Below, one piece after another: positions 34,009 through 41,937 of a DNA stretch of 64,000 nt. Under the pieces are notes generated by a model. That model had not been told where the DNA came from. It saw nothing but the letters and a program-made list of their open reading frames with translations, and did no database searches. How positions within the stretch are numbered: position 1 is the first letter of the stretch; every line of letters begins with the position of its first letter. This DNA is from Microtetraspora sp. NBRC 16547 (GTDB lineage Bacteria; Actinomycetota; Actinomycetes; Streptosporangiales; Streptosporangiaceae): NCBI RefSeq assembly GCF_030268965.1, contig NZ_BSSE01000002.1, forward strand, positions 434,001-498,000, given 5' to 3'. A program made the translations under genes and the position numbers.

Positions 34009-35148
34009 TCAGAGCCAGTCGCGGCGCTTGAAGACCAGGTAGAGGGTGACGCAGACCATGGCCATCAGGGCCACCGCGAACGGGTAACCGAACAGCCAGT
34101 GCAACTCGGGCATGTGGTCGAAGTTCATGCCGTAGATCGTGCCGACCAGCGTGGGCGCGAACAGGATGGCCGCCCAGGAGGAGATCTTCTTGACCTCGTT
34201 GCCCTGCGCGATGCTGGCCGCGGTGAGCTTGGTCATCTCCTCGTTCTGGGCCTGGCTGACCAGGGTCGAGTTGACGATGAGGATGTCCTGGAGCATCTCG
34301 CGGAACCCGGCGACGCGCTCGGTGACCGTGATGGCGTGGTCGGCGACGTCGCGCAGGTATCGCTGGAGCTCCTCGTCCACGCCGTACTTGGGCGCGTGGA
34401 CGATGAAACCGTCGAGCATGGCGACCAGCGGCTTGGTCGCCCGCTGGAACTCGATCACCTCGCGGGACAGCGCGTAGATTCGCCGGGGCGCCGCCGGGTC
34501 GCCACCGAAGACCTGCACCTCGATCTCGTCGATGTCGTTCTGCAGCCCCGCGACGACGGGCGCGTAGCCGTCCACCACCGCGTCGAGGATCGCGTACAGC
34601 ACGGCCTGTGGCCCCTGGCGGAGCAGGTCGGGGTCGGACTCCATCCGGCCGCGCACCTTCGACAGGTCGGGCGCTTCGCTGTGCCGTACGGTGAGGACGA
34701 AGTCGGGGCCGACGAAGACGTGCAGCTCGCCGAAGGCGACCTTCTCCGCCTTGTCGAGATACTGCGCGGCGCGGAGCACGACGAAGAGCGTGTCGTCGTA
34801 GCGGTCCGCCTTCGGCCGCTGGTGGGCGACGATGGCGTCCTCGACCGCGAGGTCGTGCAGCCCGAACTCCTGGGCGGCGGCGGTCAGCTCCTCCTCACCC
34901 GGGCGGTAGAGCCCTATCCACGCCATCGCTCCGGGCCTGGAACGCAGGGAGGCGATCGCGTCGGCCAGTGACACCGGCGAGTCGACCCGCTTGCCGTCCT
35001 CGTAGATGGCGTTGTCGACGACGCTGCCCCGCGCCGGCCACGCGGCGGTGGAGGCGTCACCGGACAGCGGGTCCATCGACTCCTCGGGAGCGGCATCCCG
35101 CTTCGTTCGGACGAGTCCCCGCAAACCGCGCATTCGACGCTCAGCCAC
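34009..35148 (-). CDS. corA: CorA-family magnesium/cobalt transporter
   Basis: About 379 residues with a large N-terminal cytosolic domain, a long stalk helix and two C-terminal transmembrane helices. The signature YGMNF(DHMPELHW) follows the first helix (ISSWAAILFAPTLVGTI) and the second is PFAVALMAMVCVTLYLVF, ending with basic residues. Family members form pentameric Mg2+ channels. The GTG at 35148 is my choice; an ATG at 35133 is also possible. Confidence 0.9.
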   Translation of the reverse strand: MAERRMRGLRGLVRTKRDAAPEESMDPLSGDASTAAWPARGSVVDNAIYEDGKRVDSPVSLADAIASLRSRPGAMAWIGLYRPGEEELTAAAQEFGLHDLAVEDAIVAHQRPKADRYDDTLFVVLRAAQYLDKAEKVAFGELHVFVGPDFVLTVRHSEAPDLSKVRGRMESDPDLLRQGPQAVLYAILDAVVDGYAPVVAGLQNDIDEIEVQVFGGDPAAPRRIYALSREVIEFQRATKPLVAMLDGFIVHAPKYGVDEELQRYLRDVADHAITVTERVAGFREMLQDILIVNSTLVSQAQNEEMTKLTAASIAQGNEVKKISSWAAILFAPTLVGTIYGMNFDHMPELHWLFGYPFAVALMAMVCVTLYLVFKRRDWL

Positions 35149-35320
35149 ACATAGACCGTAGAACCTTTTCACGGCACGCCGGCACCCCGAGGTGTCTGCC
35201 CCCGCTCTGCCGGGCCGCCTCGCGACGCCTCGCGACGCCTCCGGCGGCGGCCGGGCGATCACAAGGCCGCGGTGGGTTTACATCGCGTCGATCTCCCTGG
35301 CCGTACGCTGTCTCCCGGAG

Positions 35321-36061
35321 GTGGCCCCCCTGAAAGCACTCTGGAACCATCTGATCGCGACGCAGGACGCGCCGCCGACGTGGCTGATCGTCCTGGCCGG
35401 GCTCGCCGCGCTCGCCGCCGTCGCCTATCCCCCGTCGTGGCACCTGGCGCGCGGCCTGATCACCATCGCGCACGAGGGCGGTCACGCGCTCGCGGCCGTG
35501 CTGACCAGGCGCAGGCTCCACGGCATCCGGCTGCACTCCGACACCTCGGGGGTGACCCTCACCAGGGGGAACCCGCGCGGCCTCGGCATGATCGTCACGG
35601 CGGGCTCCGGCTACGTGGCGCCGTCGCTGCTCGGGTTCGGCGCGGCCTGGCTGACTTCGGCCGGCCACATCACGCTGCTGCTGTGGAGCGTGCTCGCGCT
35701 GCTCGCCTGCATGCTGCTGATGATCCGGAACATTTTCGGCGCGGTCTCGCTGCTCGTCACGGGCGGGGCCGTCTTCGCGATCTCGTCCTTCACCAAGCCG
35801 GAGGTCCAGGCGGTCGTCGCCTACGCCGCGGTCTGGTTCCTCCTGCTCGGCGGCGTACGGCCGATCGTCGAACTGCAGAGCAAGCGCCGGCGCGGCCAGG
35901 CGCCCGACTCAGACGCCGACCAGTTGGCCCGGCTGACCCGGATACCGGGCACGTTCTGGGTTGTGCTCTTCCTGCTGGTCTCCGCCGCCGCGCTGGCCGC
36001 AGGAGCCTGGCTGCTGGTCGACCTGCCCGCCCTCCTGCCCGCCGCCTTCGGCTCAGCCTGA
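35321..36061 (+). CDS. M50-like membrane metalloprotease
   Basis: An integral membrane protein of about 246 residues with an HEGGH zinc motif (LITIAHEGGHALAAVL) near the end of its first hydrophobic segment and five or six further helices (WLTSAGHITLLLWSVLALLA, VLFLLVSAAALAAGAWLLV). This is the arrangement of the compact M50B family; the substrate is unknown. The start is uncertain: the GTG at 35321 directly abuts a GGAG, while a CTG at 35330 has ideal spacing from GGAGG. Confidence 0.75.
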   Translation: MAPLKALWNHLIATQDAPPTWLIVLAGLAALAAVAYPPSWHLARGLITIAHEGGHALAAVLTRRRLHGIRLHSDTSGVTLTRGNPRGLGMIVTAGSGYVAPSLLGFGAAWLTSAGHITLLLWSVLALLACMLLMIRNIFGAVSLLVTGGAVFAISSFTKPEVQAVVAYAAVWFLLLGGVRPIVELQSKRRRGQAPDSDADQLARLTRIPGTFWVVLFLLVSAAALAAGAWLLVDLPALLPAAFGSA

Positions 36062-36088
36062 GCTCCAGCCACGGGATCATGGCCGGGA

Positions 36089-36116
36089 TTGTCGCCGGCA
36101 AGCCGTACGGTATAGC
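36089..36116 (+). promoter_or_regulatory. Candidate promoter of the SMC-like operon (leaderless)
   Basis: TTGTCG at 36089-36094 and TATAGC at 36111-36116 are separated by 16 bases. Transcription would begin at or very near the GTG at 36119, and no ribosome site precedes that codon, so a leaderless mRNA is likely. Confidence 0.5.
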
Positions 36117-36118
36117 GC

Positions 36119-37414
36119 GTGCCTCAGCAGATCTCACCAGGGAGACGACCCGCGCCGCAGCGGGACTCACAGCGGGACGCACGCCGGGAGACCCGGCGTG
36201 ATCCCGGCCCGGAGGCGTTGCCCGAGACGCTGGACGCCGCCCTCACCGATGAGGCCGTGCTCGCGACGTACCGGCGGATGTTCGCCGCGCTCGCGCGGGA
36301 CAGCGGCGCGGTCGTGGACGATCCCGCCCTGGTCGACATCGCCGAGACGCTGTTCGACGCGTTCGCCGAGGCGGGCGAGGAGTGGCTCACCCATGAGCAG
36401 ATGCGGCACGCCTGCCGGACCCACCCCACCGACCAGTTCGAGAACCGGCTGCGCGTGCTGAGGGGACTCGGCGCGATCCGCGAGGTCTTCCCCAAGCCCA
36501 ACCAGCTGCGTTACCGGGCGTCGTTCACCAGCGTCGTCGGGCTGATGTTCATCCGCCGGATGATGGACGACGGCGGCCAGTCCGAGATGCACCGCCTGCT
36601 CGCGCTGGAGGATCTCAACGTCGCCGACCCGAGCACGACCATGGAAGAGGCCCGCCAGTCCGCGGGGAACCTCGCCCGCGCGTTCCGGCTGTGGGCCCTC
36701 GAACTGATCACCTTGACCAACGGGACGATCGAGGAGCTGCGCGAGCAGGCGCCCAAGCTCTGGGGCACCGAGGAGATCGCGCGGCGGGCGCAGAGCCTGC
36801 ACGGGACGATCCTGCGCAGGTGGCCCGGCCTTGACCGCACCTGCACCGAGCTGCGGGCCGCGATCTACGCCTACAGCGACGCCTCGCGCCGCGCCGCCGG
36901 ACGGCTCGCCGACTCCGCGGGGACGACCCGCAACCTGACCCTGCTGCCCGCCGAGACGTGGCGCACATTCGCCCAGACCGCGTCGAAGGAGCGGCTGGCG
37001 GCCGTGCTCGACGGCTTCGTCTTCGACGCGCCCGCGCCCTGGCACGATCCCGCCGCCATCGCCACGGCGGTGGACGAGGCCCCGCGCCCGGCGCCGGTCC
37101 GGCCCGCTCCCCCGCGCTCGCCGCTCCCGGACACTGGGCCGGTCGATTACGCGGACGGAGGCGTGGCCGGGCTCGACCGGCTCACCGCGGTGGCGGAGTC
37201 CGCGCTCGGCGGCCGAGCGGCAGTGGCGCTGGCCGAGGTGCTGACCGGTGACTGGGCCTCCATGCGCCGCGTGCTCGCCGACCTCGCGTCCGCGGATCTG
37301 CGTCCAGAGCTGCCCTACCGGCTGTGCTGGTCCGACGCCCTCAGCGCCGACCCCGGCGGCCATCCGAGCTGGCGGTCCGACGGCACGCTCGAACGGGTGA
37401 CGACCGATGGCTGA
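36119..37414 (+). CDS. MksF/JetA-like subunit candidate (kleisin position)
   Basis: A 431-residue protein of a family I do not recognise directly. After a basic disordered N-terminus, residues about 40-140 look like a winged helix (LTHEQMRHACRTHPTDQFEN, then LRVLRGLGAIREVFPKPNQL). A long helical region follows (FIRRMMDDGGQSEMHRLLAL, SAGNLARAFRLWALELITL). A proline-rich linker and a short helical C-terminus end the protein. It is the first gene of a three-gene operon ending in an SMC-like ATPase, the place held by the kleisin-type subunit in Mks and Wadjet operons. The next gene overlaps it by eight bases. The kleisin role is inferred from gene order and fold pattern only. Confidence 0.65.
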   Translation: MPQQISPGRRPAPQRDSQRDARRETRRDPGPEALPETLDAALTDEAVLATYRRMFAALARDSGAVVDDPALVDIAETLFDAFAEAGEEWLTHEQMRHACRTHPTDQFENRLRVLRGLGAIREVFPKPNQLRYRASFTSVVGLMFIRRMMDDGGQSEMHRLLALEDLNVADPSTTMEEARQSAGNLARAFRLWALELITLTNGTIEELREQAPKLWGTEEIARRAQSLHGTILRRWPGLDRTCTELRAAIYAYSDASRRAAGRLADSAGTTRNLTLLPAETWRTFAQTASKERLAAVLDGFVFDAPAPWHDPAAIATAVDEAPRPAPVRPAPPRSPLPDTGPVDYADGGVAGLDRLTAVAESALGGRAAVALAEVLTGDWASMRRVLADLASADLRPELPYRLCWSDALSADPGGHPSWRSDGTLERVTTDG

Positions 37415-38915
37415 GATTCCCGGCACCCAGAACCCCGGCACCCAGAACCCCGGCATCGAGACCCCCGGCACCGAGAACCCCAATACCAAGAACCCCGGTG
37501 CCGAGGTCGACCCGGGCGGCGCGGCCGCGCTGGAGCACGCGCGGGCCCGGGCGCACGGGCCGCTCGCACTGCGGCTCGCCGAGCCCGCCCCTCCCGGTTT
37601 CGTCCGGCTCTCCGGCGGCGACGCCACGCCGGTCGCAGGCGAAGGCGCGGCCGGGCCAGGGGCCGCATCCACGCGCACGCCGGTGGTCGCGCTCCCCGTC
37701 TGGCCGGACGGCGTGACACCGTCCGTCCTCGACGAGTACGGCCTGGCACCCGTCCCGGTGGAACGCTCCGGAGAGACCCGCCGGGTGCTCGCGGCCTGCC
37801 TGCGGGCGTGCTGGACGGACCTGGCCGCCGAGCCGTGGCCGGGCGCACCCGCGTCGATCTCCGACGTGCTCGCCTGCTATCGCGCGCTGACCGGGCGGGG
37901 CGACGACATGACGCGCAGCTGGGCCGTGGGCGCGCTGCGCCGCCTGGCCGACACCGGGTGGATCATCAGGTCCGGCGACGTCGTGCGGCTCGGCCCCCGG
38001 TGCGCGACCTGGCCGCCGGAGTCGCACGCCGTCCTGCGCGAGCTGGTGCGCCGCCTGCCCGGCCCGCAGCCCGCGGACGGCCCCGCGACGCTTTCGTTGG
38101 AGGAGTCCGGATCCGGCGACCCGGCGCCTTCCGACTTGGCACCTTCTGAGACAGCGACTTCCGGCCCGGTGCTTTCTGACACAGCGTCTTCCGTCACAGC
38201 GTCTTCCGTCGCAGCGCCTTCCGTCACAGGGCCTTCCGACCACCGGCCGGTGAGCGCCGGGCGCGACGAGACGAGCCCGGATTTCGACGGGCTGCTCTCC
38301 CCCTATGACGAACGCCGAAGGGCCGAGCTGGTGGCGGCCCTCATGGCGGTCGAGCACGCGGCCGAGCCGGTCCACGAGGCCAGATTCGCCGCCCTGCGCG
38401 ATCCCGCGCTGCGCCGTACGCTCGCGGAGATGCTGGCGCGGCGCGGTCGGACCCTGATCCAACGCCGCGACACGTGGATCTCCGGGTACGACGACGCCGT
38501 GGCCGCCCGGCTCATCGGCGCCTCCAGAAGGACGGCGGGCGCGAGGCCGGGGCTGACGGAGGGCGAGCGGGCGGTCCTCACGCTGGTGCTGGTCCACTCG
38601 GTCGCCATCCCCCGGGCCGATGGGTTGCTGTCCGAGGACACCTGGCTCTCGCCGTACCCCGTGGCGGTGGAGGAGCTGCGCCGCCGCACCCTGCTGCCGA
38701 TCGGCGAGCTGGAGTCCGCGCTGCGGACGCTGCGCCAGGTGGGCCTGCTGACCCAGGTCAAGGCCGTCTCGGAGGAGGCGCCAGGCGGGTACGTTCCCGG
38801 CCCGCAGTTCCACCGGCTCACGGCGGCGGCCCGCCGCCGTCTCCAGGAGGAGCTGATCCTGGCGGCCGGACCGCAGACGCCGCTCGCCACCGCGATCAGA
38901 TCGCGGCGAGCGTGA
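37407..38915 (+). CDS. MksE/JetB-like winged-helix subunit candidate
   Basis: A 502-residue protein. The N-terminus is a low-complexity run (PGTQNPGTQNPG, then TENPNTKNPG) from 15-base repeats. A first winged-helix-like region (about residues 105-200) contains RSWAVGALRRLADTGWIIRS. A second low-complexity linker (about 230-290) is rich in Ser, Thr, Ala and Pro. A second winged-helix-like region (about 370-470) contains VAVEELRRRTLLPIGELESA and LRTLRQVGLLTQVKAV. Two winged helices suit a KITE-type accessory subunit of an SMC complex, which is also what its middle position suggests. It is larger than typical MksE because of the linkers. Function is inferred from context. Confidence 0.6.
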   Translation: MAEIPGTQNPGTQNPGIETPGTENPNTKNPGAEVDPGGAAALEHARARAHGPLALRLAEPAPPGFVRLSGGDATPVAGEGAAGPGAASTRTPVVALPVWPDGVTPSVLDEYGLAPVPVERSGETRRVLAACLRACWTDLAAEPWPGAPASISDVLACYRALTGRGDDMTRSWAVGALRRLADTGWIIRSGDVVRLGPRCATWPPESHAVLRELVRRLPGPQPADGPATLSLEESGSGDPAPSDLAPSETATSGPVLSDTASSVTASSVAAPSVTGPSDHRPVSAGRDETSPDFDGLLSPYDERRRAELVAALMAVEHAAEPVHEARFAALRDPALRRTLAEMLARRGRTLIQRRDTWISGYDDAVAARLIGASRRTAGARPGLTEGERAVLTLVLVHSVAIPRADGLLSEDTWLSPYPVAVEELRRRTLLPIGELESALRTLRQVGLLTQVKAVSEEAPGGYVPGPQFHRLTAAARRRLQEELILAAGPQTPLATAIRSRRA

Positions 38916-38960
38916 CCGGGAAAGACGGGCCTGGGAAAGACGAGCCCGGGAAAGACGAGC
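38916..38960 (+). repeat. Three 15-bp tandem repeats before the SMC-like gene
   Basis: Three head-to-tail units of CCGGGAAAGACGAGC or one-to-two-base variants begin directly after the stop of the preceding gene and end 19 bases before the TTG start of the ATPase gene. They are purine-rich and could influence ribosome access. Confidence 0.85.
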
Positions 38961-38979
38961 GAGGAAAGGAAGCAGCGGC

Positions 38980-41937
38980 TTGACGCAGACCGAGAACGTC
39001 GTCGGGGACCGGGTGCTGGTCGCCGTGCAGGCGATCAACATCTCCCGGCTGTCGACGCATCCGGTGCCGACCGTGCCGGGGACGCTGATCGTGGTCGCCG
39101 GCGCGGGTCCCAAGGACTCCAACGGCGCGGGCAAGTCGTCGTTCATCGCGGCGATCACCGCGCTGCTCGGCGACGAGCAGTGGCGGTTCGCGTCCGGGGC
39201 CAAGGCCGTCTCCGAGCTGCTGTTCAACGCCGAGCTCGCCGCGCACGGCGACCAGCAGTGGGCCAGTGCCGACCATGGCTACATCGTCGGCGTGTTCGAC
39301 GTGCCGTCGGCCGGCCTGCCGATGACCGTGTGGCTGCGGGTCAACCGCGAGGCGCCATACCTGGAGATCAGGTGGACGGAGGGCGTGCGCCTGGCCGGAG
39401 GCGCTTCGGAGGCCGACCGCGTCACCCGGTCTGACGAGGTGTGGGCCCAGCTCCCGCGCAGCGCCGGGCGCCGTGATGTCGTGGCCCGCGACCTCACCCG
39501 GGTCCTGTACGGCGACCGCGTCCGGTGCGTGTCGTTCCTTTCCACGTCGGTCCGGAGCAAGGTCGCCACAAACCTGCTCTCCCAGCCGCTCAACGAGATC
39601 TCCCCCGAGCGGATCTTCGAGGCGATCGCGGCGCTGACCGGCCTCGACGCCGAGCTGGACCAGGAGCGCGAAGCCAGGCGGGACGAGCACGCCAAGCGGG
39701 TCAGGGCGGCGGAGGCGGCCGACCGGCTGCACGAGTTCGAGACCGAGTCGCAGGCGCTGCTCGCCGCCTTCGACCGGCGCGACCAGGCGCGCGTCCAGCT
39801 CGCGAGCGCGCTGCGCTGCTGGCGCGGGAGGCTGGCCCGGCGGCTGGTCGACGCCGCCGCCCGGGACGAGGAGCTCGACGCGGAACTCGCCACGTGCGAA
39901 GAGGCCGCGGAGTCGGCGTCGGACGCGATCGCCACGCTGCGCGAGGAGATCGCCGCCCTGAAGGACGACTCGCTCGACCGCGCCCTCGCCTCCGCCCGGC
40001 GCGAGCTGGCTCAGATCCAGGCGCGGGCGGCCAAGTTGGAGGCCGACCGGGCGGTGGCCCAGAGCACCGTCGACGGGCTGCGGTCCCAGACGCCCGCGCT
40101 CGAAGACCTGCGGCGGCAGGCCGACGGGCGGGACGTGGCCACCGCCGAGCGTGAGAAGGCCGCCGCGCGCGCCCGGGTGGACGAGGCGCTCAAGGCGCTG
40201 GGTGTGGCCGACAGCGAGGCCGAGACGGCGCGGGCGGCCCTCGACGACGCGGAGAACGGTCCCGCGGCCGCCCAGCTCGCGGCCCTGGCCGGGCGGGGCG
40301 TCGCCGCCGCCAGCCTGCTGGACGCGGTCGACGTCGCCGAGCAGGCACGGGACGCGTCCGCCGGTGGTCCCGCGGCTGAGCTGGTCGCGACCAGGGCCTG
40401 GCCGCACGAGCACGCGGTGATCGTGGACGGCGCCGACCTGGCCGCGGCGGCGAAGGCGCTCGCCGACCTGCCGGGATCCGTGCTGGTCAGCTCCACGGGT
40501 GTCACGGTCGTCGGCGCCTTCGAGAGCGCGGTGACCGGGCGGGAGGCCCGGGTCAAGGCCGCCGAGCAGCGCCTGAACCGGGCCCGCGACGCGCAGGATC
40601 GGGCCGCCGAAGTGGTGCGGCAGGCGGAGGCCGAGATGGCCGAGGCGGTCCGGCGGGCCGACGGCGCCCGGGCGGCGGTCCGCCTGGAGGACGTCCGTAC
40701 CCGCCTGGAGGCTCAGCGGGAGCTGCTGACCGGGCTGCACGCGGCGGCCGACAAGCTGGCACCGGCGCTCGACGCGTCGGAGGAGAGCGTGAGCGCCCTC
40801 GACTTCAGGGCGCGCACCCGCGACATGGAGATCGAGCGGTTGGAGGGCCGCCGGGCGCGGTTCGAGGCGGATCGCGACCGGGCCCGGGAGCAGGCCGCCC
40901 GGACGACCGCCGAGCGGCGGGCACTCGACCTCGGCGGACTCACCGAGGAGTGGTGCGGCACGGTCGAGGAGGCGCGCGGGTGGCTCGCGGCGGAGGAGCC
41001 GCTGACCGCCGACGAGTGGTGGCGCGGCGCCGAGCGGCATCTCGACGCGGCCCTGCGCGGCGGGTTCGGCGACTCCGCGGAGACGGGCGACGAGATGCCG
41101 GAGGAGCTGGCCTTCCTCGTCAACGAGCGGCGGAGCGGCCGGTCGGCCGAGGAGCTGGCCACGTTCCCCGCGGTGTGCGCCGCTCTCGGCTCCTATCTCC
41201 GCGGCCAGGAGGAGTACGAACGCCACCGCCGCCAGCAGATCGAGACCCAGCTCTCCTCACGCCGGCGCGACCTGGAGACGGCGAACCGCGGCGCGGAGGA
41301 CGCGGCGCAGTCCACGGCCGTGCACCGGGCGGCGCTCACCGAGGCGATCAGGGCCCGCCTGGCCCGGGTCGCCGAGGAGTTCGAGAAGCTCGACGTGGGA
41401 TACGGCGGCTACGGCGCGACGCTGGACTTCCCGGTGCCCGCCGCGCCCGCCGATCCCGAGCAGCGCTGGTCGTGGCGGGTCGTGCCCAAGTGGCGGCGGG
41501 GTGACGGCCAGGGGTTCGTGCCCTACAACCGGCGGGCGAACACGGCGCTCATGGACGAGAAGGCGGTCAAGCTCGTCTGCGCCGCCGCGATCGCGTCCTC
41601 GGGAGGCGGCCACCTGACGCTGGTCCTCGACGAGCTCGGCCGCAACCTCGGCAAGGAGCACCGCAGGGAGGCCGTGGCGCTGTTCCGCAAGATCGGCGAG
41701 ATGCACGGCATCACGGTCATCGGCGCCCTGCAGGACGACATGGAGCCCTACGCCATCGACGCCTGCGGGCAGTACGTGAAGCTGCGCCGCTCCTCGGACG
41801 CCATGCCGTACAACGAGCCGCCGGTCATCGTGGGGCACGACCGGCACGCCGAGAGGGTGCGCATGCTCGCGGACTGGGTCGCCCGCCCGCGAGCCGCGTC
41901 ACCGGCGGGTCCCGGCGGCGTCGCCGCCGGGACGTAG
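38980..41937 (+). CDS. SMC-like coiled-coil ATPase (MksB/JetC-like)
   Basis: A 985-residue ATPase with SMC architecture. The N-terminal head has a Walker A (GPKDSNGAGKSS, residues 43-54). Long Ala/Glu/Arg-rich coiled coils at about 225-425 and 515-660 flank a globular middle (about 430-515, with WPHEHAVIVDGADLAAAAKA) in the hinge position. The C-terminal head has a Walker B (LTLVLDE, Asp884-Glu885) and D-loop-like GRNLGKEH. I see no standard LSGG signature; the equivalent place reads NTALMDEKAVKLVCAAAIA. The TTG start follows AGGAAAGGA. With two winged-helix genes upstream it matches the MksFEB or JetABC order. DNA loop extrusion or plasmid restriction is inferred from those relatives. Confidence 0.8.
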   Translation: MTQTENVVGDRVLVAVQAINISRLSTHPVPTVPGTLIVVAGAGPKDSNGAGKSSFIAAITALLGDEQWRFASGAKAVSELLFNAELAAHGDQQWASADHGYIVGVFDVPSAGLPMTVWLRVNREAPYLEIRWTEGVRLAGGASEADRVTRSDEVWAQLPRSAGRRDVVARDLTRVLYGDRVRCVSFLSTSVRSKVATNLLSQPLNEISPERIFEAIAALTGLDAELDQEREARRDEHAKRVRAAEAADRLHEFETESQALLAAFDRRDQARVQLASALRCWRGRLARRLVDAAARDEELDAELATCEEAAESASDAIATLREEIAALKDDSLDRALASARRELAQIQARAAKLEADRAVAQSTVDGLRSQTPALEDLRRQADGRDVATAEREKAAARARVDEALKALGVADSEAETARAALDDAENGPAAAQLAALAGRGVAAASLLDAVDVAEQARDASAGGPAAELVATRAWPHEHAVIVDGADLAAAAKALADLPGSVLVSSTGVTVVGAFESAVTGREARVKAAEQRLNRARDAQDRAAEVVRQAEAEMAEAVRRADGARAAVRLEDVRTRLEAQRELLTGLHAAADKLAPALDASEESVSALDFRARTRDMEIERLEGRRARFEADRDRAREQAARTTAERRALDLGGLTEEWCGTVEEARGWLAAEEPLTADEWWRGAERHLDAALRGGFGDSAETGDEMPEELAFLVNERRSGRSAEELATFPAVCAALGSYLRGQEEYERHRRQQIETQLSSRRRDLETANRGAEDAAQSTAVHRAALTEAIRARLARVAEEFEKLDVGYGGYGATLDFPVPAAPADPEQRWSWRVVPKWRRGDGQGFVPYNRRANTALMDEKAVKLVCAAAIASSGGGHLTLVLDELGRNLGKEHRREAVALFRKIGEMHGITVIGALQDDMEPYAIDACGQYVKLRRSSDAMPYNEPPVIVGHDRHAERVRMLADWVARPRAASPAGPGGVAAGT

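Follow-up and report, generated by a model that had tools for sequence, protein, structure and literature searches.

A stretch of 64,000 nucleotides from Microtetraspora sp. NBRC 16547 (contig NZ_BSSE01000002.1, positions 434,001 to 498,000; hereafter the window) contains three adjacent genes, named here A, B and C, which we take to encode a KITE-type (kleisin-interacting tandem winged-helix element) structural maintenance of chromosomes (SMC) complex. This complex would be related to Wadjet and MukBEF, would lack a nuclease and would probably act on the chromosome, a reading that we hold to be probable. Gene A (36119–37414, forward strand, GTG start) was assigned from its open reading frame (ORF) together with a structure model and encodes a proposed kleisin of 431 residues. 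Gene B (37407–38915, forward strand, ATG start) encodes a protein of 502 residues in which two proposed KITE subunits, B1 and B2, are fused, and gene C (38980–41937, forward strand, TTG start) encodes an SMC-like ABC ATPase of 985 residues with coiled-coil arms. The overlap of A and B by 8 nucleotides, the starts and the gene boundaries agree with an earlier note on this DNA, which had described an SMC-like operon resembling Mks and Wadjet. The conservation of the three genes as a unit, the ScpB-type top matches of B and the mostly MukEF or MukBEF matches of A, all presented below, bear out that description.

The three ORFs are genuine genes. GC content at the third codon position is 0.90–0.95 in A, B and C, and substitutions relative to related loci are more frequent at third than at first and second codon positions in all 11 comparisons made; for C against its relative at locus L021, the differences at positions 1, 2 and 3 are 0.048, 0.031 and 0.149. 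This divergence, concentrated at third positions, and the GC bias are those of genes under selection at the protein level. A contig search with C alone yielded 138 relatives, 80 of which were kept. Their hosts belong to Microtetraspora, Nonomuraea, Herbidospora, Planobispora, Streptosporangium, Actinomadura, Thermomonospora and similar genera, plus two metagenome-assembled genomes, and the closest among the 80 are from Microtetraspora (87–93%). Order and strand of A-B-C are kept in 78 of the 78 core loci (those with the form of the operon seen in the window) whose sequence before C measures 3.5 kb or longer. The core set numbers 91 once loci from further genomes are added, and its remaining 13 members are too short on that side to be counted. 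A lack of conservation of the trio in other genomes, which the earlier note had named as a refutation, is thus not seen. Identity matrices over 14 loci are strongly correlated (r 0.99 for A and C, 0.97 for B2 and C, 0.98 for A and B2), and none of 2000 permutations reached such values. A survey for a fourth gene, suggested in the earlier note, gave none that is conserved in the operon: after clustering of 93 stretches, the commonest extra neighbour family occurs in 24 loci. A gene on the same strand follows within 150 nucleotides of C in 22 of 76 loci, and these genes belong to several families.

B had been described as a single double winged-helix protein but turned out to consist of two subunits. 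B1 and B2 lie in different reading frames in 35 of the 87 stretches where both halves were found, and these separate genes overlap by 4 or 8 nucleotides in 33 cases and by 11 and 58 nucleotides in the remaining two. In the other 52 loci, the window included, they are fused through a variable linker. Six loci were left out of this count, five lacking B1 near a contig end and one (L126) lacking both halves. In the window, B1 occupies 37512–38081 (forward strand; residues ~36–225 of B) and B2 occupies 38262–38912 (forward; residues ~286–502), while the linker between them (38082–38261, forward; residues ~226–285) is of low complexity, poorly conserved and low in predicted local distance difference test score (pLDDT) at residues 228–272. 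A model of B built from an alignment of 67 rows (A8) reached a pLDDT of 80.7 and a predicted template modelling score (pTM) of 0.75. According to our own reading of its secondary structure, B1 comprises one winged helix and a beta-containing N-terminal part, and B2 comprises two consecutive winged helices, which is the KITE architecture. When the model was compared with 350,542 PDB chains, nine of the ten best matches carried ScpB or ScpAB in their titles; the remaining one, 1t6s, is entered as a conserved hypothetical protein and is presumably also ScpB. A chain of Wadjet-II JetABC (9qe0_D) followed at rank 16, over 452 columns, and an SMC5/6 chain (7tve_F) at rank 49, and many lower ranks were occupied by MarR-type chains. 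As modelled, the tandem winged helices of B2 and the ScpB-type top matches of B mark B2 as a predicted KITE protein.

The model of A, again by our own reading, contains an N-terminal winged helix (residues ~44–134), a helical bundle (136–269), a proline-rich linker and a C-terminal winged helix (349–426). Winged-helix folds, which the earlier note had expected in both small proteins, are thus found in the predicted structures of A and B alike. Seven of the first 13 Foldseek matches of the A model came from MukBEF or MukE-MukF entries, with E-values of 0.035–0.60, and none of its matches had an E-value of 0.001 or less. The model is weakly suggestive of a kleisin fold.

Judged by its motifs, C is an ABC ATPase in which the Walker A and Walker B motifs lie at opposite ends of a coiled-coil protein. 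Walker A, GPKDSNGAGKSS (39106–39141, forward strand; residues 43–54 of C), carries an aspartate in place of the usual first glycine of GxxxxGK[ST] and reads DSN[GE][AS]GK[ST] in 14 diverse sequences (alignment A9). Walker B, LTLVLDE, is located at 41614–41634 (forward strand; residues 879–885) and is followed by DELG.[NS]LG in the A9 sequences. Both motifs stand as first noted, Walker A being in frame in 80 of 80 loci (L021–L100) and LVLDE (residues 881–885) being identical in 81 of 81 rows. The hinge-like middle that had been proposed for C (40267–40539, forward strand; residues ~430–520) fits a stretch of many conserved glycine and proline columns at residues ~427–522, flanked by the proline-poor stretches 210–427 and 523–661, and a hinge model is absent among the Pfam matches listed for C. 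An SGG-type ABC signature appears to be missing. The likely signature (41539–41550, forward strand) reads N-T-A-L in the window, and the 14 diverse sequences have N-[TSG]-A-[QL] in this region in place of the SGG type. The surrounding ANTALMDEK does not vary across all 81 rows, NTAQ occurs in a second family and N[SGT]AQ in the deep branch described below. N854 and A856 are invariant in A9; the register is uncertain, since the head comparison pairs T855 with the signature serine while the deep branch favours N854.

An apparent frameshift in 13 Nonomuraea C genes was rejected as an artefact of start choice, Walker A being in frame throughout. In 10 of the 80 C loci one stop falls within the aligned span, where it coincides with the end of the listed C ORF. 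At the Nonomuraea loci L059–L069, L072 and L098, C was matched as two pieces that share a frame; here the N-lobe (residues ~107–115) contains a large insertion whose length varies.

No gene for the Wadjet nuclease was found beside the core form. A hidden Markov model (HMM) built from nine JetD sequences found no JetD in 92 core loci (1.55 Mb) or in the window, which agrees with the earlier description of an operon with no nuclease gene; its single match in the core loci (E 0.099, at L077) is a 60-residue stretch overlapping B2. The same HMM recovers five JetD genes in control loci, four of which are its own members and only one of which, at L126, is independent. At least 1.5 kb beyond both operon ends was covered in 75 of the 91 loci. 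The absence of JetD leaves a motor with no known executor, and for this reason a DNA-organising role is favoured.

A search with A of 150 genomes from the window's taxonomic family revealed three divergent clusters, which form a deep branch: L196 (genome G596), L197 (G664) and L198 (G668, in which it is a second copy; this genome is flagged as 8% contaminated). All three contain A, B2 and C in the order typical of the family, with C 27–31% identical to that of the window. B1 was matched directly in L197 and L198. The B1 profile gave no match in L196, where, according to our reading of the alignment, one long ORF joins B2 to a B1-like N-terminal part; this would be a second B1-B2 fusion, and fusion on more than one occasion would point to contact between the two proteins. 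A JetD-family gene lies beside two of the three clusters. At L198 a gene matching JetD_C (3.4e-12) and DUF2399 (1.7e-6) is placed downstream in convergent orientation and ends 7 nucleotides from the end of C, while at L196 a JetD homologue (PF09983, 5.7e-17; PADLOC JetD1, 3e-13) lies upstream on the same strand and overlaps the start of A by 4 nucleotides. The two JetD proteins are 39% identical over 442 residues, and both contain VVEN and DLDADG, which we take to be the acidic motifs of a Toprim domain. At L197 the JetD HMM found no JetD in 58 kb. Proteins of the deep branch match Jet models weakly, JetC at 2e-4 or worse over the coiled coil and JetB1 at 0.005 (L196).

These clusters show that one family holds both nuclease-bearing and nuclease-free members. 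It is conceivable, and we put it forward tentatively, that the operon is a domesticated Wadjet-type system which lost JetD and now serves as a genus-wide chromosome-handling complex, with a two-protein and sometimes fused KITE part and a changed signature, in Streptosporangiaceae-type genera and a second actinobacterial family. A difference in direction only, compatible with a nuclease-free chromosomal complex, would be that the nuclease-free form is ancestral and the deep branch gained JetD. We rate this as rather unlikely. A gain would suit the unrooted state of the trees, the small number of deep-branch loci known (three, of which L197 has no JetD in 58 kb) and the different placement of JetD in L196 and L198. 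Against it, the JetD proteins of L196 and L198 are alike, and a degraded remnant at L126 also joins a C tail to a DUF2399-like stretch. This remnant, as it probably is, consists of a 407-residue ORF in genome G162 (L126:7938–9161) that starts with the last ~82 residues of C and continues in frame into a DUF2399/Toprim-like stretch (score 25.8 bits, cut-off 23.4; no match to the JetD HMM), and it adjoins the JetC and JetD genes of a type II-like Wadjet.

The operon has a partial distribution in the window's family and follows genus in family f21. Within the window's family it is present in 61 of 150 genomes, including G596 and G664 with the deep-branch form only, and none of the negatives listed (20 of 89) falls in a positive genus. 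Within family f21 it occurs in 12 of 12 genomes of genus g77 and 2 of 2 of g98, and in 0 of 5 of g104 and 0 of 3 from three further genera. In a sample of the class searched with C, 17 of 197 genomes were positive, one of them by the L126 fragment, and a search of the phylum returned only the own genome of 396, a weak negative as at most four candidates were scored per genome. ScpB was found in 36 of 38 relatives, among them the window's genome, which carries its own ScpB on another contig. A plasmid search with C of the window, L198 and L196 and with A of L196 gave only one Nonomuraea record, of 11.85 Mb and thus chromosome-sized; phages, searched with A alone, and viral contigs, scanned for two short patterns, gave no match. 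The presence by genus in f21, the coexistence with ScpB and the lack of any hint of mobility in the collections searched are in keeping with a DNA-organising role.

The proposed working of A-B-C is based on analogy with KITE-type SMC complexes as outlined in PMC10512200 and PMC10586767. Dimers of C would form a ring-shaped, ATP-driven motor, which uses ATP to engage its heads and move DNA; A would be the kleisin that closes the ring, and B, with its B1 and B2 parts, would be the KITE element seated on A. In the manner of other SMC complexes, it would bind or clamp DNA or extrude loops of it. The form in the window would handle DNA without cutting it, most likely in chromosome organisation or segregation beside the genome's own Smc-ScpAB, whereas JetD-bearing relatives of the deep branch may still restrict circular DNA. 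On this scheme, JetD was either lost from the core form or never part of it, in the window's family as in the second family. The data establish the four-part module (A, B1, B2 and C) and its conservation, the motifs, the places where JetD did and did not turn up and the distribution in the samples; the KITE fold of B and, more weakly, the kleisin fold of A come from models, and complex formation, loop extrusion, the chromosomal role and the direction of change are points that we infer.

In comparison to known systems, A-B-C resembles Wadjet (JetABCD, types I–III) in its kleisin-KITE-SMC order, in its coiled-coil ABC ATPase of about 1000 residues and in the JetD-family genes beside two of its three deep-branch relatives. 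It differs from Wadjet in that JetD was not found beside the core form, the KITE part comprises two genes, the ABC signature is altered, and window A and B match no Jet profile of types I–III. In positive controls, JetA, JetB and JetC of L152 and JetA and JetC of L161 matched the Jet profiles at E-values from 2e-94 to 0. MukBEF and MksBEF share the same order of kleisin, KITE and SMC genes; MukBEF also has no nuclease, and the A model is nearest to MukEF and MukBEF entries. However, a sequence relation of A or B to these proteins was undetected in a test with no power, the KITE part is split, and C has 985 residues as compared to 1486 in E. coli MukB. The fold of the B model is closest to ScpB of Smc-ScpAB, yet the genome has an ScpB of its own, B has no Pfam match up to an E-value of 1, PF04079 (ScpB) included, and A, B and C share one operon. 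Should B1 be KITE-like as well, it would form with B2 a couple of different proteins that recalls the Nse1/Nse3 pair of Smc5/6, although B1 has one clear winged helix in the model and the sole structural link is the rank-49 chain 7tve_F.

Several results weigh against an SMC complex of this kind. The A model is weak (mean pLDDT 61, pTM 0.35), and the fold search with B gave a single match with an E-value of 0.001 or less, the ten best matches having TM-scores of 0.34–0.51 by target. None of the three proteins scored above the cut-off of any Pfam or NCBIfam model. PADLOC gave only weak matches on C, namely LmuB (2e-6, residues 208–408) and mad3 (4e-5, residues 47–331); as both also match a real JetC, that of L152, they single out no family. 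Profile searches of the PDB found no match with A, nothing SMC-like with B1, and with B2 only winged-helix regulators, MarR-type included, and unrelated chains at E-values of at least 0.14. With C they returned mostly coiled coils, led by an SMC3 fusion over the coil (3.7e-4), and with its C-lobe ABC-transporter ATPases (E 0.06–0.3). Comparison of the C heads by hhalign was weak: 77% for a 28-residue Walker A segment and 12% for the C-lobe against JetC-I, 1.0% and 0.3% against JetC-II, and 52% and 0.6% against MukB. A wider alignment gave 72/15%, 6/9% and 29/1% in the same order. The Walker A segments compared with JetC-I span 23–28 residues, and six JetC/MukB control comparisons gave 88–98% in five cases and 38% in one. 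Because the ABC signature is unusual, the ATPase behaviour of C is uncertain, and the presence of the operon in its own family is partial, covering 25 of 68 genera.

Full-length hhalign scores of C (95.7% and 93.2% with JetC-I, 51.8% and 93.2% with JetC-II) were discounted. Three of the four run along the coiled coil only, and the fourth (JetC-II, C profile positions 55–342, spanning N-lobe and coil) falls to 5.9% on the N-lobe alone. For A and B, hhalign against JetA, JetB and MukEF gave values near zero, and controls failed too (JetA-I against JetA-II 0.6%, JetB-I against MukE 27%). The profile comparison proposed in the earlier note therefore gave only a weak link for the C heads and none that could be read for A and B. 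NCBIfam SMC_prok_B also matches C weakly (8e-5, residues 222–426), as does, among other Pfam models, the general SMC_N/RecF/RecN model. C thus appears SMC-like by its architecture and its company, with no strong sequence link, and profiles place it firmly neither with JetC nor with MukB. The small proteins, for which no family could be named at the outset, are likewise not named by the libraries searched (Pfam, NCBIfam and PADLOC). The A-B-C family also went unmentioned in the literature searched, which concerned Wadjet or SMC/kleisin in these genera, nuclease-free Mks/JetABC and Wadjet types and was covered by the listed titles and beginnings of abstracts of mostly open-access papers. What the operon adds is an SMC-like family unrecognised by these profile libraries, together with a KITE part divided between two genes and a naturally occurring change in the ABC signature.

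A role in plasmid defence with no nuclease gene of its own, in which the complex blocks or silences circular DNA by clamping it or borrows a nuclease encoded elsewhere, for instance JetD from the genome's separate type II Wadjet, is in our view unlikely. JetD beside two of the three deep-branch clusters is suggestive of such a role. On a separate contig (C25 61000–71500, locus L167), the window's own genome contains a type II Wadjet represented by DUF2397 and DUF2399 genes; the DUF2399 gene (C25:62410), the only one in the genome, is about 7 kb away from the JetA-II gene (C25:69126). C was found in 16 of 60 relatives searched, and among these 16 carriers a DUF2399 gene is present in 10 and a JetD_C gene in one. 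However, six carriers (G001, G008, G012, G015, G028 and G036, each 99–100% complete) have neither JetD family at an E-value of 0.001, which makes the need for a nuclease encoded elsewhere less likely. The presence by genus in f21 also speaks against defence, most defence systems being distributed otherwise, and so do the neighbours scanned in the window (M50B peptidase, CorA, amino-acid permease). The earlier note had left three options for this actinomycete variant: no cleavage, a nuclease encoded elsewhere, or chromosome organisation. The lack of a neighbouring nuclease agrees with it, and a required nuclease elsewhere appears unlikely.

That C is instead a RecN/SbcC-like repair or structural coiled-coil ATPase, with A and B as DNA-binding regulators, is very improbable: the profiles put C close to neither JetC nor MukB heads, its weak Pfam matches include the general model named above, and winged helices are common in regulators, as the MarR-type chains at B's lower ranks and among the B2 profile matches illustrate, but the ten best fold matches of B are ScpB-type rather than regulators, those of A are mostly MukEF or MukBEF entries, A, B and C occur strictly together, and a JetD-family gene adjoins two of the three deep-branch clusters.

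Upstream of the operon, a conserved stretch (36073–36121, forward strand) reaches the GTG of A and holds a -10-like sequence. A leaderless-looking promoter had been proposed here. Strong conservation up to the GTG in the four Microtetraspora loci compared is consistent with it, whereas a sigma-70 consensus scan upstream of A gave no promoter site. Further upstream lie a divergent pair, a CorA-type gene (34009–35262, reverse strand) and an M50B-peptidase gene (35192–36061, forward strand), whose longest ORFs overlap and which belong to families also seen close to the operon in 17 and 21 loci, respectively.

Downstream of C, a family of proteins mostly of about 1100 residues starts within ~50 nucleotides at L073 (5617–8937), L075, L082, L087, L089, L094 and L097. 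Ten loci have a member, the hosts being Actinomadura and near relatives, and a Ser/Thr kinase-like gene is often next to it. The L073 protein weakly resembles HEAT repeats, at a score under the Pfam threshold. A HEAT protein next to an SMC operon is reminiscent of the HAWK subunits of eukaryotes, here restricted to one clade (some Actinomadura).
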